The notes under the pieces are model-generated. The model was not told the origin of the DNA and searched no databases. It saw nothing but the letters and a program-made list of their open reading frames with translations. From Pseudomonas sp. PDNC002 (GTDB lineage Bacteria; Pseudomonadota; Gammaproteobacteria; Pseudomonadales; Pseudomonadaceae), in assembly GCF_016919445.1 (NCBI RefSeq), contig NZ_CP070356.1:2698001-2762000 (forward strand): a stretch of DNA of 64,000 bases, written 5' to 3'. Of the stretch, positions 50,104-56,908 are shown piece by piece (position 1 is the first letter of the stretch; every line of letters starts with the position of its first letter). The position numbers and the translations under genes are program-made.

Positions 50104-50847
50104 GTGTCCCAAGATCATTCTTCCCTGGCCGCATTCGCGCTGGAAACTCCGGCGCCCCTGTATGCGCGGGTCAAGGAAATCATCCTGCAGCAGATCCGCA
50201 ACGGCGTCTGGAAACCCAACTCCAAGTTGCCTTCGGAGAGCGAGCTGTTCGCCCTGCTTGGCGTGAGCCGGATGACCATCAACCGCGCGTTGCGCGAGCT
50301 GACCATCGAAGGCGTGCTGGTGCGCCTGCAGGGCGTGGGGACCTTCGTCGCCGAACAGAAGGGCCACGCGGCGCTCTTCGAGATCCACAACATCGCCGAG
50401 GAGATCGCCGCACGCGGACATGAACACCGCTGCGAAGTGGTGCTACTGGAGCCGCTGGCCGAGGGTGCGACCCTGGCGATGCCGTTCGAGCTGGAAAACG
50501 TCCAGCGCATCTTTCACTCCATCGTCGTGCACTACGAGAACGAAGTGCCGGTGCAGTTGGAGGAACGCTTCGTCAACGCCGAGGTGGCGCCGGAGTACCT
50601 GCAGCAGGACTTCACCCGCATCACGCCCTACGCCTACCTGATCCAACTGGCGCCGCTGACCGAGGGTGAACATGTGGTCGAGGCGATCAACGCCGAAGCG
50701 GCCGACTGCAAGCTGCTGCGCATCAAGCGGGGTGATGCTTGCCTGCTGATCCGTCGCCGCACCTGGTCGGCGAAGGGGCAGGTGGGTGCCGCGCGACTGG
50801 TCTATCCGGGGTCGCGCTATCGCCTCGAAGGTCGTTTCGGGCAGTAA
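50104..50847 (+). CDS. hutC: Histidine utilization repressor HutC
   Basis: A 247-residue GntR/HutC-family repressor: winged HTH (about 15-82, YARVKEIILQQIRNGVWKPNSKLPSESELFALLGVSRMTINRALRELTIEG) and a UTRA ligand domain (about 95-240), whose effector in relatives is urocanate. GTG start at 50104. It is upstream of and parallel to hutU; the hutU leader has a palindrome of HutC type. The other hut genes (hutH, hutI, hutG) are not nearby, so it may be dedicated to this short module or be a second HutC. Confidence 0.92.
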   Translation: MSQDHSSLAAFALETPAPLYARVKEIILQQIRNGVWKPNSKLPSESELFALLGVSRMTINRALRELTIEGVLVRLQGVGTFVAEQKGHAALFEIHNIAEEIAARGHEHRCEVVLLEPLAEGATLAMPFELENVQRIFHSIVVHYENEVPVQLEERFVNAEVAPEYLQQDFTRITPYAYLIQLAPLTEGEHVVEAINAEAADCKLLRIKRGDACLLIRRRTWSAKGQVGAARLVYPGSRYRLEGRFGQ

Positions 50848-50896
50848 TCGGCTGTCACCCGACGGGGCGAAAAGTCCGCCCCCGCTGTCTCCTTTG

Positions 50897-50934
50897 GTGC
50901 ACCGTTTTGTTACCTCTGTGCACCGCGCTGTTAC
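50897..50934 (+). promoter_or_regulatory. Tandem activator-site repeats (CbrB/NtrC-like) upstream of hutU
   Basis: GTGCACCG-TTTT-GTTAC (50897-50913) is repeated as GTGCACCG-CGCT-GTTAC (50918-50934): a 17-bp unit with three mismatches and a 21-bp period, two helical turns. TTGTTAC is, as I recall, the half-site of CbrB. The repeats lie about 150-180 bp upstream of the sigma-54 promoter, where an enhancer-binding protein would sit. Confidence 0.6.
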
Positions 50935-51079
50935 TTTTCCTCCTTCCTTTCCCGAAGCCTTCTCTCGCTGCCACCCGTGGCGAGGGGCGTCGCCTGTCTG
51001 TGCATAAGATTTCTATCCATTTGAAATAAAAAGACATTCTCATCGCGGAAATGAGCTCCTAGCGCACCGCCAGCTTATT

Positions 51080-51095
51080 TGGCCCTTGCTTTGCA
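51080..51095 (+). promoter_or_regulatory. Sigma-54 promoter of hutU
   Basis: TGGCCCTTGCTTTGCA matches TGGCACG-N4-TTGCA, with the required 12-bp spacing between GG (51081) and GC (51093). The predicted start lies near 51106. Sigma-54 control of hutU by CbrB and NtrC is documented in other pseudomonads. The region 50848-51245 contains no gene. Confidence 0.8.
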
Positions 51096-51098
51096 TTA

Positions 51099-51114
51099 GC
51101 TTGTATATACAGGT
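51099..51114 (+). promoter_or_regulatory. HutC-type operator over the hutU transcription start
   Basis: GCTTGTATATACAGGT contains the palindrome TGTATATACA (51102-51111), matching the CTTGTATATACAAG type of operator known for hutU in P. putida. It covers the predicted transcription start, so binding would block initiation until urocanate releases HutC. Confidence 0.72.
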
Positions 51115-51245
51115 TGATATAAGGTTTTACACATATCAGGTGACAGTAGATGAGTACGGCAGTGCCCGTTGCCCTCTATTCACCCGTTTCCGCCCCGCCG
51201 GACTGCCTTCCAGCGTGGCGCCACCCCTGCATCGAGGAAGTCCAG

Positions 51246-52919
51246 ATGAGCTCCACCGGCCGTTACCGTGATACCGAAATCCGTGCCCCGCGCGGCACCC
51301 AACTGAACGCCAAGAGCTGGCTGACCGAAGCGCCGCTGCGCATGCTGATGAACAACCTCGACCCGGAAGTCGCCGAGAACCCCAAGGAGCTGGTGGTGTA
51401 CGGCGGCATCGGTCGCGCCGCGCGTAACTGGGAGTGCTACGACAAGATCGTCGCCACCCTGAAGGAACTGAATGAAGACGAAACCCTGCTGGTGCAGTCC
51501 GGCAAGCCGGTCGGCGTTTTCAAGACCCACGCCAACGCCCCGCGCGTGCTGATCGCCAACTCCAACCTGGTGCCGCACTGGGCCAACTGGGAGCACTTCA
51601 ACGAACTCGACGCCAAGGGCCTGGCCATGTACGGCCAGATGACCGCCGGCTCCTGGATCTACATCGGCAGCCAGGGCATCGTCCAGGGCACCTACGAAAC
51701 CTTCGTCGAAGCCGGTCGCCAGCATTACGACGGCAACCTGAAAGGCAAGTGGGTGCTCACCGCCGGCCTCGGCGGCATGGGCGGCGCCCAGCCGCTGGCC
51801 GCGACCCTGGCCGGTGCCTGCTCGCTGAACATCGAATGCCAGCAGAGCCGCATCGACTTCCGCCTCGCCAGCCGCTACGTCGACGAGCAGGCCAAGGACC
51901 TCGACGACGCCCTGGCGCGCCTCGCGAAGTACACCGCCGAAGGCAAGGCCATCTCCATCGCCCTGCTGGGCAACGCCGCGGAAATCCTCCCGGAACTGAT
52001 CAAGCGCGGCGTGCGCCCGGACATGGTCACCGACCAGACCTCCGCCCACGACCCGCTCAATGGTTACCTGCCGGCCGGCTGGACCTGGGAGCAGTACCGC
52101 GACCGCGCGCAGACCGACCCGGCCGCCGTGGTCAAGGCCGCCAAGCAATCCATGGCTGTGCACGTCAACGCCATGCTGGAGTTCCAGAAGCAGGGCGTGC
52201 CGACCTTCGACTACGGCAACAACATCCGCCAGATGGCCAAGGAAGAGGGTGTCACTAACGCCTTCGACTTCCCCGGCTTCGTCCCGGCCTACATCCGCCC
52301 GCTGTTCTGCCGTGGCGTCGGTCCGTTCCGCTGGGCCGCGCTGTCCGGCGACGCCGAGGACATCTACAAGACCGACGCCAAGGTCAAGGAACTGATCGCC
52401 GACGACGCCCACCTGCACAACTGGCTGGACATGGCGCGCGAGCGCATCAGCTTCCAGGGCCTGCCGGCGCGCATCTGCTGGGTCGGCCTGGGCCAGCGCG
52501 CCAAGCTCGGCCTCGCATTCAACGAGATGGTCCGCAGCGGCGAGCTGAAAGCGCCGATCGTGATCGGCCGTGACCACCTCGACTCCGGCTCGGTGGCAAG
52601 CCCCAACCGCGAGACCGAAGCCATGCGCGACGGCTCCGACGCCGTGTCCGACTGGCCGCTGCTCAACGCCCTGCTGAACACCGCCAGCGGCGCCACCTGG
52701 GTCTCACTGCACCACGGCGGCGGCGTGGGCATGGGCTTCTCCCAGCACTCGGGGATGGTGATCGTCTGCGACGGCACCGACGAGGCGGCGGCGCGCATCG
52801 CCCGCGTGCTGACCAACGACCCAGGCACCGGCGTGATGCGCCATGCCGATGCGGGTTACCAGATCGCGATTGATTGCGCCAGGGAGCAGGGCCTGAACCT
52901 GCCGATGATCACCGGCTGA
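51246..52919 (+). CDS. hutU: Urocanate hydratase
   Basis: Converts urocanate to 4-imidazolone-5-propionate using bound NAD+ as electrophile; cytosolic homodimer. At 557 residues it equals the P. putida enzyme. Motifs: [15 protein letters not shown] (NAD loop, about 170-185), [15 protein letters not shown], and [15 protein letters not shown] with Cys411, likely the essential Cys410 of P. putida. ATG 51246 follows GAGGAAG; an in-frame ATG at 51150 would add 32 residues not found in the family. First gene of an apparent hutU-CoA-transferase-dehydrogenase operon. Confidence 0.97.
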
Positions 52920-52929
52920 GGAATCGAGC

Positions 52930-54102
52930 ATGAGCAATGTGACTGAACTGCCCACGCCGCAGCCGCTGAATGGCGTGCGTGTACTGGACCTGAGCCGCGT
53001 GCTGGCTGGCCCGCACTGCACCGCGATGCTCGCCGATCTCGGTGCGGAAGTGATCAAGTTCGAAGTGCCGGGGCACGGCGACGACAGCCGCCACCTCGGC
53101 CCGTTCAAGGACGGCGAAAGCGTCTATTTCGGCTTGATCAACCGCGGCAAACGCAGCGTCGAGCTGGACTTCAAGTCGCCGGAAGACCTGCAACGTTTCT
53201 ATGACCTGGTGGCGGACGCCGATGTGGTGGTGGAGAACTTCCGCCCCGGCGTCACCCAGCGCCTGGGCATCGATTTCGACAGCCTCAGGCAGCACAACCC
53301 GAAGCTGATCTACGCGAGCATTTCCGGTTTCGGCCAGAACGGCCCGCTGTCGCGCCGCCCGGCCTACGACATCGTCGCCCAGGCGATGTCCGGGCTGATG
53401 AGCGTCAGCGGATTCCCCGAGACGGGTCCGACCCGCAGCGGCGAAGCCCTTGGTGACCTGTGCGCCGGCGTCTATGCGGCCTGGGCGATCAGCAGCGCAT
53501 TGTTCGCCCGCGAGCACCAGGGCAGCAGTGCGCAATATATCGACGTGGCGATGTTCGACGTGCTGGTCAGCCTGCAGATGACCGGCCTGTCGAACCTGTT
53601 CGCCCACGGCAAGGCGCCGGGCCTGGTCGGCAACCGCCATCCGGTGTCGACGCCGTTCGACACCTACCGCGCCGCCGACGGCCTGGTGGTGATCGCGGTG
53701 GCCAGCGACAAGCTGTTCCGGCGCTTCTGCGAAAGCATCGGCCGCGGCGAACTGGCCGACGATCCGCGCTTTGCCGACGACCCCTCGCGCACCCGCAACG
53801 AGCAGGCACTGCGCGCCGAGATCGAGGCCTGGACCGGTCAGCGCAGCGTCGAACAGGCCTGCGACCTGCTGCTGGATGCCGGCGTGCCGGCCTCGCCGGT
53901 GTGGAACCTCGCCGAGGCCACCGGCAGCGAACAGGCGCAGGTGCGCCAACTGCTGGTGCAACCGGCCGACGACCAGCCGCCACTGGTGCCGCAACCGGTC
54001 TACTTCAACGGGCGCAAGCCCCACGCCGCGACGCGCGCTCCCCGCTTGGGCGAAGCCAACGCCGCGTTCGGCCTCACGAATAAAGCAGGAGCTGTGCAAT
54101 GA
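52930..54102 (+). CDS. CaiB/BaiF class III CoA-transferase in hut operon
   Basis: A 390-residue CoA-transferase: GVRVLDLSRVLAGPHCTAMLADLGAEVIKFE, NFRPGVTQRLG and the catalytic Asp147 in RPAYDIVAQAMSG are canonical, unlike the paralogue at 44879. It starts 10 bp after hutU and overlaps the acyl-CoA dehydrogenase start (ATGA), so the three are translated together. Class III enzymes pass CoA between related acids (for example carnitine and crotonobetaine in CaiB). In this setting urocanate or imidazole propionate are the likely acids; that assignment is inference. Confidence 0.92.
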   Translation: MSNVTELPTPQPLNGVRVLDLSRVLAGPHCTAMLADLGAEVIKFEVPGHGDDSRHLGPFKDGESVYFGLINRGKRSVELDFKSPEDLQRFYDLVADADVVVENFRPGVTQRLGIDFDSLRQHNPKLIYASISGFGQNGPLSRRPAYDIVAQAMSGLMSVSGFPETGPTRSGEALGDLCAGVYAAWAISSALFAREHQGSSAQYIDVAMFDVLVSLQMTGLSNLFAHGKAPGLVGNRHPVSTPFDTYRAADGLVVIAVASDKLFRRFCESIGRGELADDPRFADDPSRTRNEQALRAEIEAWTGQRSVEQACDLLLDAGVPASPVWNLAEATGSEQAQVRQLLVQPADDQPPLVPQPVYFNGRKPHAATRAPRLGEANAAFGLTNKAGAVQ

Positions 54103-55244
54103 ACTTCGACATCGACGCCACCGAACTGGCCATCGTCGACTCCGCCGAGCGGGTCTGCCGCGACGTGCTGGCCGCCAACGCCCAGCGCTATGACGAAGAG
54201 GAATCCTTCTGCGCCGAAAGCCTGCAGGCCCTCGGCGAGCTGGGCTTCATGGGCATCAACCTGCCGGAAACCTATGGCGGCTTCGGCATCGGCAGCCTGG
54301 CCATGAGCCGCGTAGTCGAGGCGGTGTCGGCGGCCTGCGCCTCCACCGCGTCAGCGTTGACCGCACACTTCCTCGCCACCGATTCGATCCTCATCGGCGG
54401 CACCGAGGAGCAGCGCCAGGAATGGCTGCCGCGCTGCGCCAGCGGCGAGCTGCTCGGCGCCTTCGGCCTGACCGAGCCGGCGGCCGGCTCCAACCCGGCG
54501 GACATGCGCACCCGCGCCGTGCGCGAGACCGGCGGCTGGCGGATTCGCGGCAGCAAGCACTACATCACCAATGCCCGCGAAGCCGATTTCATCGTGCTCT
54601 ATGCCAAGACCGACCCGGAGGCCGGCGCCCGTGGCATCAGCGCCTTCCTGATTCCCAAGGGCACCGCCGGCGTCACCTTCGCCAACCCGGAAAAGACCAT
54701 GGGCCTGCGCGGCAGCACCATCTACGAGCTGGCGCTGGACTGCTGGCTGCCGGCGGATGCGCTGCTGGGCGAGGAAAACCAGGGCTTCCGCACCGCCATG
54801 GAAGTGCTGGATCGCGGCCGCGTGGAAGTCGCCGCCATGTCGCTGGGCATCGCCCGCGCCGCCATGGAGTACGCCTTGAAGTGGGTGGATGAGCGGCAGA
54901 TCGGCACCAAGCCGCTGTCGGCCTACCAGGGCACCCAGTGGCGCATCGCCGATATGCACGCGCAGTTCCAGGCCGCGCGCCTGCTCACCCAGCAGGCCGC
55001 CGCGCGGCGTGACAGCGGCGAGCGCTTCAGCCTCGAATCGGCGACCGCCAAATTGTTCGCCGCCGAGGCCTGCGGCTTCATCACCGACGCCGCGCTGCAA
55101 CTGCACGGCGGCTACGGCTACATCCGCGACCTGCCGCTGGAGCGCTTCGTGCGCGACGCCCGGATCCTGCGGATCTTCGAGGGAACCTCCGAGGTGCAGA
55201 AGATCATCATCTCCCGCGCCGTGCTGGATGCCGCCCGCCATTGA
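54099..55244 (+). CDS. Acyl-CoA dehydrogenase in hut operon
   Basis: A 381-residue FAD flavoenzyme of the short/branched-chain acyl-CoA dehydrogenase type. LGAFGLTEPAAGSNPADMRTRA is the FAD/substrate signature, LQLHGGYGYIRDLPLERFVRDAR the second, and the catalytic base is probably Glu361 in IFEGTSEVQKII. It introduces a trans double bond alpha,beta to a CoA thioester. Overlapping the CoA-transferase gene, it is the natural partner: the pair could make an enoyl-CoA such as urocanoyl-CoA. Electron acceptor (ETF) genes are not in the window. Confidence 0.93.
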   Translation: MNFDIDATELAIVDSAERVCRDVLAANAQRYDEEESFCAESLQALGELGFMGINLPETYGGFGIGSLAMSRVVEAVSAACASTASALTAHFLATDSILIGGTEEQRQEWLPRCASGELLGAFGLTEPAAGSNPADMRTRAVRETGGWRIRGSKHYITNAREADFIVLYAKTDPEAGARGISAFLIPKGTAGVTFANPEKTMGLRGSTIYELALDCWLPADALLGEENQGFRTAMEVLDRGRVEVAAMSLGIARAAMEYALKWVDERQIGTKPLSAYQGTQWRIADMHAQFQAARLLTQQAAARRDSGERFSLESATAKLFAAEACGFITDAALQLHGGYGYIRDLPLERFVRDARILRIFEGTSEVQKIIISRAVLDAARH

Positions 55245-55254
55245 CGGCAGGTAC

Positions 55255-55277
55255 GGGGCGGCCTCCGCTGCCGCCCC
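55255..55277 (+). terminator. Hairpin after the acyl-CoA dehydrogenase
   Basis: GGGGCGGC (55255-55262), loop CTCCGCT, GCCGCCCC (55270-55277). It starts 11 bp past the stop and could limit read-through into the permease gene. Confidence 0.6.
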
Positions 55278-55311
55278 GGTGAATCAGGAAACGCTGTGCA
55301 CAAAACCTGTC

Positions 55312-55433
55312 CACGATCTGCTGCGCGTCGGCCGTAGGGCGTTGGAAAGCGCCCTCAGATGCTCAATTACAGCTCGTAAACTCCGCTCTTCGGGTGCTTT
55401 CCGCCTACTACGGCTCTAGCTCGCGAGGTCGTG
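55312..55433. repeat. Long inverted repeat between dehydrogenase and permease
   Basis: CACGATCTGCTGCGCGTCGG...GTTGGAAAGC (55312-55350) pairs imperfectly with GCTTTCCGCC...TCGCGAGGTCGTG (55396-55433). The motif CTACGGCTCTAGCTCGCGAG next to GTGAACAGGCTC is one I recall as a dispersed repeat in pseudomonads. It lies in the 251-bp spacer, with no gene. Confidence 0.7.
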
Positions 55434-55495
55434 AACAGGCTCCATAACAACAACAGCGCGGCTGGGCGAACGTCCGGCGGCGAGGAGAAAGCTTC

Positions 55496-56908
55496 ATGGC
55501 TGGTAAGTCCCTGATCGAAACCCGCTCCATCGATTACATTCCCCAGGCTGAACGGCACGGCCGCCTGTTCAGCCAGTTCACCCTGTGGTTCGGCTGCAAC
55601 CTGCAGATCACCGCCATCGTCACCGGCGCGCTGGCGGTGGTGCTTGGCGGCGACGTGTTCTGGTCGCTGATCGGCCTGCTCATCGGGCAGATATTCGGCG
55701 GCGTGGTGATGGCGTTGCACGGCGCCCAGGGGCCCAAGCTCGGCCTGCCGCAGATGATCTCCAGCCGTGTGCAGTTCGGCGTGTTCGGCGCGGTGATCCC
55801 GCTGGTGCTGGTCTGCGTGATGTACGTCGGTTTCAACGCCACCGGCACGGTGCTGGCGGGCCAGGCCATCGGCCAGTTGGCCCATGTCAGCGACACCGTC
55901 GGCATCCTGGTGTTCGCGGCGGTGATCGTCGCGGTGACGGTCTGCGGCTACCGGGTGATCCATTGGCTCGGCAAGGCCGCCAGCGTGCTGGGCATCGTCG
56001 CCTTCGCCTACCTGTTCGTGCGCCTGCTGTCGGTCAACGACATCGGTGTGCTGCTGGAGAATCGCCACTTCGCCTGGAACACCTTCCTGCTCGCGGTTTC
56101 CCTGGCGGCGTCCTGGCAGATCGCCTTCGGGCCCTACGTGGCAGACTACTCGCGCTACCTGCCCAGCGAAACCTCGTCGCCGAAGACGTTCTTCGCGGTG
56201 GGCCTGGGCTCGGTGCTCGGCTCGCAGACGTCCATGGTCCTCGGGGTGTTCGCCGCGGCGCTGGCCGGTAAGGAGTTCTCCGGGCAGCCGGTGGCTTACG
56301 TGGTGGGCCTGGGCGCCAGCGGCATGATGGCGTCCGCACTGTTCTTCAGCGTGGCCTTCGGCAAGGTCACCATCGCCACCTTGAATGCCTACGGCAGCTT
56401 CATGTGCATCGCCACCATCATCAGCGGCTTCCGTGGCCAGTTGAAGGTCACGCACCTGCAGCGTCTGCTGTTCGTGCTGGTGATCGTCGGCCTGTCCACC
56501 GGCCTGGCGCTGGCCGGGCAGCATTCCTTCCTGGCCGCGTTCAAGTCGTTCCTGCTGTTCCTGCTGGCGTTCTTCACGCCGTGGAGCGCGATCAACCTGG
56601 TGGATTACTACTGCATCACCCGCGAGCGCTATGACATCCCCGCGCTGTCCGATCCCGACGGCCGCTACGGTCGCTGGAACTGGACCGGCATCGGCGTCTA
56701 CTGCTTCGGCGTGCTGGTGCAGATGCCCTTCATCGACAGCGGTTTCTACACCGGTCCGTTGGTGGAGAGGCTCGGTGGCGTGGATATCTCCTGGCTGATC
56801 GGCCTGTTGTTACCAGCGCTGGCCTACTACCTGTTGGCGCGCAACAGCCAGGGCCATGTGCCCGACCGGCTGATCCTGCCGCAGGGTGGCGAGTCGACGG
56901 CGATCTGA
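55496..56908 (+). CDS. NCS1-family permease (hut-associated)
   Basis: A 470-residue nucleobase-cation-symporter-1 protein with about 12 helices. FTLWFGCNLQITAIVTGALAVVLGGD, GPKLGLPQMISSRVQFGVFGA and YVADYSRYLPSETSSPKTFFAVGLGS are NCS1 motifs. In P. aeruginosa an NCS1 permease lies beside hutU (PA5099, by recall). Here it is the candidate importer for urocanate or imidazole propionate. Ribosome-binding site GAGGAG about 7 nt before ATG. Spaced 251 bp from the dehydrogenase and behind a terminator-like hairpin, it may have its own promoter. Confidence 0.9.
   Translation: MAGKSLIETRSIDYIPQAERHGRLFSQFTLWFGCNLQITAIVTGALAVVLGGDVFWSLIGLLIGQIFGGVVMALHGAQGPKLGLPQMISSRVQFGVFGAVIPLVLVCVMYVGFNATGTVLAGQAIGQLAHVSDTVGILVFAAVIVAVTVCGYRVIHWLGKAASVLGIVAFAYLFVRLLSVNDIGVLLENRHFAWNTFLLAVSLAASWQIAFGPYVADYSRYLPSETSSPKTFFAVGLGSVLGSQTSMVLGVFAAALAGKEFSGQPVAYVVGLGASGMMASALFFSVAFGKVTIATLNAYGSFMCIATIISGFRGQLKVTHLQRLLFVLVIVGLSTGLALAGQHSFLAAFKSFLLFLLAFFTPWSAINLVDYYCITRERYDIPALSDPDGRYGRWNWTGIGVYCFGVLVQMPFIDSGFYTGPLVERLGGVDISWLIGLLLPALAYYLLARNSQGHVPDRLILPQGGESTAI

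Follow-up and report, generated by a model that had tools for sequence, protein, structure and literature searches.

Imidazole propionate is the compound dihydro-urocanate. It is a microbial histidine product that has been linked with type 2 diabetes (PMC10882135), and a second paper links it with cardiometabolic and neurodegenerative disease (PMC13320830). The described systems closest to its metabolism are the urocanate reductase UrdA, which links urocanate and imidazole propionate and is reported to act in the direction of urocanate reduction (PMC10882135), and the Pseudomonas hut pathway, whose repressor HutC binds TGTA-N2-TACA at a site that overlaps the sigma-54 site at hutU (PMC12977541). 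A 1973 study by Coote and Hassall, cited in the reference list of PMC3953581, concerned by its title the degradation of imidazolylpropionate by Pseudomonas testosteroni. While the production side through UrdA has already been studied, no genes for the removal of imidazole propionate were found among the matches listed in the open-access literature. We analysed a 64,000-nucleotide window (positions 2698001-2762000 of the complete 6.39 Mb genome of Pseudomonas sp. PDNC002) that holds a five-gene module in which a coenzyme A (CoA)-transferase and an acyl-CoA dehydrogenase (ACAD) follow a second copy of hutU. With a probability of roughly 0.83, we read this module as an additional way into the histidine pathway, controlled by HutC, in which imidazole propionate would take the place of histidine.

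Open reading frames and profile matches placed all five genes on the + strand between window positions 50104 and 56908, in the order hutC'-hutU'-CoA-transferase-ACAD-NCS1 permease, with two predicted promoter elements between the first two genes:

50104..50847, + strand: hutC paralogue (hutC'), GntR/UTRA repressor of 247 aa with a GTG start (TIGR02018, 297.6 bits)
51080..51094, + strand: sigma-54-like -24/-12 element TGGC-N7-TTGC, forming a composite with the HutC operator
51102..51111, + strand: predicted HutC operator TGTATATACA (TGTA-N2-TACA; consensus from an excerpt of PMC12977541)
51243..52919, + strand: hutU paralogue (hutU'), urocanate hydratase, in an open reading frame that opens at 51150 (TIGR01228, 1032 bits)
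52930..54102, + strand: CoA-transferase of family III (CaiB/BaiF type) with Asp147 (PF02515)
54099..55244, + strand: ACAD with Glu361 (PF02771/PF02770/PF00441)
55496..56908, + strand: NCS1-type permease (cytosine/purine type), proposed importer of imidazole acids (PF02133)

The start of hutU' is probably 51243 rather than the longest-frame start at 51150. Both hutC' and hutU' passed equivalog models (TIGR02018, cut-off 220; TIGR01228, cut-off 375); under a second HutC model, NF011575, hutC' stayed below the cut-off (341.6 vs 424), as did the canonical HutC of the genome (368.3). The transferase belongs to family III by its PF02515 match and conserved Asp, and the ACAD belongs to the acyl-CoA dehydrogenases by three Pfam domains and a conserved Glu. 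In alignments, these residues correspond to Asp147 and Glu361, each kept in 58/58 module rows (the query's own gene being counted twice), and we take them to be catalytic. The permease matched PF02133 but scored below the TIGR00800 cut-off (115 vs 353). An earlier note on this DNA, made from its letters, had named these five genes and Asp147, along with a 10 bp gap between hutU and the transferase gene and an overlap within the pair; every gene was where the note had put it, with a profile-matched family, the gap measured 10 bp, the overlap was 4 bp, and Asp147 proved to be the aligned conserved residue.

In the pathway that we propose, the NCS1 permease would import imidazole propionate and the transferase, a putative urocanoyl-CoA:imidazole-propionate CoA-transferase, would form imidazole-propionyl-CoA. 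The ACAD, as a putative imidazole-propionyl-CoA dehydrogenase, would desaturate this thioester to urocanoyl-CoA and pass the electrons through electron-transfer flavoprotein (ETF) and ETF-quinone oxidoreductase (ETF-QO) to ubiquinone. Urocanate would be freed from urocanoyl-CoA as the transferase shifts the CoA to a further molecule of imidazole propionate, and the duplicated urocanase would hand its product to HutI and so on to glutamate. We infer the substrate, product, direction, CoA recycling, transport specificity and inducer from sequence and gene context.

The same note had described a hut module without hutH, hutI and hutG, which holds locally but not for the genome, where a complete, profile-matched hut cluster lies at positions 587391-604339. 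That cluster encodes HutG (TIGR02017), HutI, a HutH-like protein without the Ala-Ser-Gly triad that forms the methylidene-imidazolone (MIO) cofactor, a betaine-type ABC transporter, an NCS1-type permease, HutU (595979-597643), a histidase (TIGR01225, 677 bits, with Ala-Ser-Gly), HutD, HutC and HutF. With a full cluster present elsewhere, the module would add a point of entry and would not be a hut system in reduced form. HutU' is 98.2% identical to the canonical HutU at the amino acid level (96.8% at the nucleotide level), the module permease is 75% identical to the permease adjoining canonical hutU, and hutC' is 64.5% identical to the canonical HutC; the nearest paralogues in the genome are at 42% for the transferase and at 41% or less for the ACAD. 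The urocanase, permease and repressor are extra copies, the CoA pair is without a close second copy, and the pair stands at the place that hutH would occupy. The canonical permease is presumably the counterpart of PA5099 of P. aeruginosa. PA5099 is the reported urocanate transporter HutTu (PMC12977541).

We compared the two hutU copies of PDNC002 (window 51243-52919 and genome 595979-597643) with those of 15 other genomes. Within-genome copies were closer to each other than to the same kind of copy elsewhere in 6 of the 9 Pseudomonas compared (in P. arcuscaelestis, 98.7% within the genome vs 90.5% to the copy of another genome), a pattern that suggests gene conversion; it was not met in P. BN417, ok272 and PS723, nor in the seven non-Pseudomonas genomes. 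In many draft genomes, hutU was present only as pieces at contig ends.

The promoter of the module points to the hut regulon. The site at 51102-51111 is the only exact TGTA-N2-TACA in the 64-kb window (0.02 expected), and the composite of sigma-54-like element and operator occurred once in the window and in none of 100 shuffles. The canonical hutU promoter of the same genome bears the same composite. By this operator at its promoter, the module is a predicted member of the HutC regulon. Among Pseudomonas loci with at least 1.9 kb of upstream sequence, 15/16 carried a GG-N9-11-GC plus operator composite; in one of the 16 (L020) the operator had one mismatch. In five Pseudomonas loci without hutU beside the pair (L025, L039, L040, L042 and L059), the composite precedes the transferase gene instead, so that it stands before the pair in 5 of the 6 loci without adjacent hutU, the exception being L056 of Wohlfahrtiimonas. 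This placement would tie the pair itself, and not hutU alone, to the hut regulon. Exact operators were also found upstream in L043 and L044, and in L173 and L171, which have no recognisable histidase.

A scan of GTDB contigs gave 210 related stretches, of which 80 were kept; 47 of these encode a transferase with more than 60% identity. Pseudomonas accounts for 31 of these loci (two in one strain), Providencia for 12, Citrobacter for two, and Ignatzschineria and Wohlfahrtiimonas for one each. The ACAD gene follows the transferase gene in 47/47, at a distance of at most 48 bp in all but one, a broken Providencia stuartii locus with 369 bp. Of the 32 loci whose upstream sequence reaches 1.9 kb or more, 26 have the end of hutU less than 400 bp before the pair; on shorter contigs, 14 of the 15 loci show hutU or its 3' part in that position, and an NCS1 gene follows the pair in 42 of the 45 loci with enough sequence. 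The earlier note had suggested looking for hutU beside this pair in other genomes, and the arrangement thus recurs beyond chance. Nine of the 25 genomes searched from the genus carry the module (that of the window included). The rows of P. schmalbachii and P. panipatensis both read hutU-pair-NCS1-hutI-hutG, and each contains the only hutU found in its genome. At 72% identity or more, the pair was found in 5 of 246 genomes from the family of a Providencia genome (query included); four more genomes in that search, at 48-50%, had a lyase-type arrangement, described below. In P. stuartii NCTC11800, the module hutU, transferase and ETF-QO genes and the genome's hutH are in pieces, possibly through sequencing error. 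In the window, the module is flanked by a RecJ-domain gene upstream and a TonB-dependent receptor gene downstream, neither of which looks related to it.

Genes for the proposed electron route stand beside the module in relatives. In 16 loci (two Citrobacter, 12 Providencia, one Ignatzschineria and one Wohlfahrtiimonas), etfB-etfA-ETF-QO continue the module row; the etf and ETF-QO calls were profile-checked on samples, with PF05187 and PF21162 for ETF-QO in 3 of the 16. Fer4_ETF_QO gave one match per genome in the 22 genomes searched (two pieces in P. stuartii), and this single match was the gene behind the module in those 16 genomes and lay elsewhere in the genome in the six Pseudomonas. Three further Pseudomonas loci (L034, L035 and L040) have etfB-etfA near the module and no ETF-QO, and in L162, from Bacillota, genes for an iron-sulphur/CCG-domain protein and etfB-etfA lie in the vicinity of the pair and hutU. 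Transfer of ACAD electrons to ubiquinone via ETF-QO would imply oxidation and hence a saturated acid as substrate, and the saturated acid that fits beside urocanase is imidazole propionate.

Two clusters carry the pair with the rest of the hut pathway and no recognisable histidase. The first, G112 (Pseudomonadaceae, 3.3 Mb, 100% complete), has the order hutC-hutD-hutU-transferase-ACAD-NCS1-hutG-hutI, and no HutH match was found in its genome with the HutH model. The second, G1002, reads hutI-hutG-hutC-hutD-hutU-transferase-ACAD-NCS1-etfB-etfA-ETF-QO, and its only HutH homologue scored 279 bits against a cut-off of 539, lacks the Ala-Ser-Gly triad and, by eye, has a signal-peptide-like start. 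HutU, HutI and HutG exceed their cut-offs in both genomes, and on these assignments the pair stands where the histidase should be. Roughly 4 kb from the G1002 module (L178:1449-4080), there is also an exported-looking protein of the flavocytochrome c family (261 bits vs cut-off 285), accompanied by cytochrome c3-type and NapC/NirT-type proteins, so G1002 is possibly a producer and a consumer of imidazole propionate in one genome.

How CoA is supplied bears on a part of the scheme. The best NCBIfam models for the transferase were CoA:oxalate and succinate-glutarate transferases, and its closest solved structure is YfdE; enzymes of these three kinds use metabolic acyl-CoAs. It is accordingly possible, if a clear second choice, that the substrate is imidazole propionate and CoA comes from acetyl- or succinyl-CoA, with urocanoyl-CoA cleaved by a thioesterase elsewhere and no closed cycle. 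Against this, we recognised no CoA ligase and no thioesterase among the neighbouring open reading frames read, many of which were judged by eye from their first residues, and one transferase can perform both half reactions. With Asp147 and Glu361 kept and no ligase or thioesterase recognised, a CoA cycle would be the simplest scheme, and given imidazole propionate as substrate, we consider the closed cycle reasonably probable. The transferase fell below the curated cut-offs as a YfdE-type CoA:oxalate CoA-transferase (NF008511, 343.5 vs 522), as the L-carnitine CoA-transferase CaiB (NF002914, 121.8 vs 413) and as a succinate-glutarate or mesaconate transferase. The ACAD likewise fell below them as acryloyl-CoA reductase AcrC, its best NCBIfam match (NF042972, 382.3 vs 640), as CaiA (NF002885, 170.4 vs 540) and as a cyclohexanecarbonyl-CoA or glutaryl-CoA enzyme.

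These families leave the substrate unfixed, and clade-specific residues of the two enzymes do not identify the acid without a substrate-bound structure. The pair could then act on an N-methylated or thio-substituted relative of imidazole propionate, or on some other saturated acid, with hutU present for joint regulation, and a related transferase group found with MIO-less lyases and beta-oxidation enzymes probably does serve another azolyl acid. We nevertheless regard this as unlikely: HutU' and the canonical urocanase are 98% identical, and HutU' scored below both cut-offs for the thiourocanate (ergothioneine) pathway (NF058530, 694 vs 930; NF058531, 714 vs 880), so it should act on plain urocanate, as should the HutU of G112 and of G1002 next to HutI and HutG. 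That the pair runs in reverse, activating urocanate and reducing it to imidazole propionate as an electron sink in the way that CaiB/CaiA act on crotonobetaine, is very improbable even though a reductase is what the ACAD matches best (AcrC, 382 vs 640; CaiA is weaker, 170 vs 540), since ETF-QO with a ubiquinone-binding domain lies behind the module in relatives and urocanase, in some loci with HutI and HutG, removes urocanate in the same gene row.

Several observations weigh against imidazole propionate as the substrate of a HutC-controlled module. Neither the transferase nor the ACAD exceeded the cut-off of any NCBIfam equivalog in the profile search, and the substrate assignment therefore rests on gene context. 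The PDNC002 module has no ETF genes of its own and would depend on the ETF-QO encoded elsewhere in the genome. Six loci lack an adjacent hutU and three lack NCS1, and the upstream sequences scanned in Ignatzschineria L057, Wohlfahrtiimonas L056, two Paracoccus loci (L179 and L181) and two from Bacillota (L161 and L165) showed no exact HutC operator. Distribution is patchy, with 18/348 genomes in the family and 1/369 in the class, the latter being the window's own (each count includes it), and the DNA of the Citrobacter pair had no match in E. coli (5,426 genomes). Nor do carriers in general lack a histidase: the HutH cut-off was exceeded in 49/50 carrier genomes (this count and the hutU genome count left out L061 and L062, and the histidase search left out L067 and L069-L094) and in 15/17. 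A score over the HutH cut-off is no proof of a working histidase, since an MIO-less homologue passes it too (552 vs 539). Urocanate import by the permease could likewise feed the histidase-less clusters, but alone it would leave the pair in G112 and G1002 unexplained. On balance, the imidazole propionate to urocanate route, which the earlier note had put forward, gains support from paralogy, the promoter, the ETF/ETF-QO linkage, hut-linked pairs elsewhere and the G112 and G1002 clusters, all of which are genomic.

The MIO-less homologue just mentioned (L013) is the first "HutH" of the canonical PDNC002 cluster (genome 589650-591395), where it adjoins the betaine-type ABC transporter (proV-type ATPase and OpuAC binding protein). 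It may be a histidine betaine lyase and not a histidase, and we presume a likeness to ergothionase. Similar MIO-less HutH-like lyases occur in L168, L169 and L180 (Rhizobium), where a related transferase group stands with the lyase, a 3-hydroxyacyl-CoA dehydrogenase, an enoyl-CoA hydratase and an ABC transporter; these loci were read by profile (L168), by eye (L169) and from annotation (L180). L168 is the same place as a plasmid match in Sodalis praecaptivus and has an OpuAC-type binding protein. This group probably serves a different azolyl-acrylate pathway that would proceed by beta-oxidation.

Hut-linked pairs also occur in other lineages. On plasmids of Paracoccus alcaliphilus and P. aminophilus, the order is hutI-hutH-hutG-transferase-ACAD-hutU, and a few bases at the edges of the pair are shared with the neighbouring genes; of 58 plasmid records matched, three were opened, two from Paracoccus with this hut operon and one from Rhizobium with the lyase/beta-oxidation arrangement. 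In the family of Oceanobacillus, the pair lies in or beside a hut cluster in 7/7 loci whose transferase shares 58% identity or more with the O. polygoni protein (which is counted among them). As a negative control, 0/13 loci with a transferase at most 48% identical (L148-L160) had a hut neighbour, by the references used and within 1.5 kb flanks; that search matched 56 genomes, 49 of which hold only such distant transferases, and most of these were not opened. For phylogeny, rows with a stop or identical to another were dropped (145 to 116 for the transferase, 114 to 89 for the ACAD), and a later transferase tree used 37 chosen rows. In the latter, the gammaproteobacterial, Paracoccus and Bacillota hut-linked groups were each well supported and were separated by other rows, some of which also have a nearby hut gene. 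Bacillota rows joined the module clade in the ACAD tree, among the rows sampled; the Bacillota transferases were placed differently in two trees, and a label test was compatible with one origin. Taken as a whole, we lean modestly toward a self-contained imidazole-propionate operon in pseudomonads and Enterobacterales (Providencia and Citrobacter), with a CoA-neutral cycle leading to glutamate and electrons ending in ubiquinone, which would have replaced histidase outright in some bacteria and whose pair was possibly recruited into hut operons on more than one occasion.

A bacterial sink for imidazole propionate becomes directly testable through a defined pair that comes with an operator, a permease and an electron chain. 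The module is a candidate for bacterial removal of this disease-associated compound and a possible marker for gut metagenomes, and it suggests a function for Paracoccus proteins whose annotation in the two plasmid records goes no further than "CoA transferase" and "acyl-CoA dehydrogenase family protein".

Among the open-access literature matches listed, we met neither the gene module nor its regulation, nor the clusters that lack a recognisable histidase; the chemistry itself, CoA-ester desaturation and hut catabolism, belongs to a known kind. To our knowledge, the 1973 study of P. testosteroni names no genes; its likeness to our system lies, by title only, in a bacterium that degrades imidazole propionate, a degradation thus reported half a century before by title. 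UrdA connects the same two compounds as those proposed for the module pair, but does so by reduction with a flavin enzyme and no CoA ester. The Pseudomonas hut pathway shares with the module a HutC-type repressor, TGTA-N2-TACA by a sigma-54-like site, urocanase and a 75% identical permease, and differs in having a histidase where the module has the CoA-transferase-ACAD pair. The CaiB/CaiA carnitine and FldA-type aryl-acid systems likewise combine a family III CoA-transferase with an enzyme of the ACAD fold, so that one CoA could cycle; for FldA, this likeness is one of mechanism and not of sequence comparison. Unlike CaiB and CaiA, from whose models the module pair is far removed (122 vs 413 and 170 vs 540), the pair would work in the oxidative direction, through ETF-QO.

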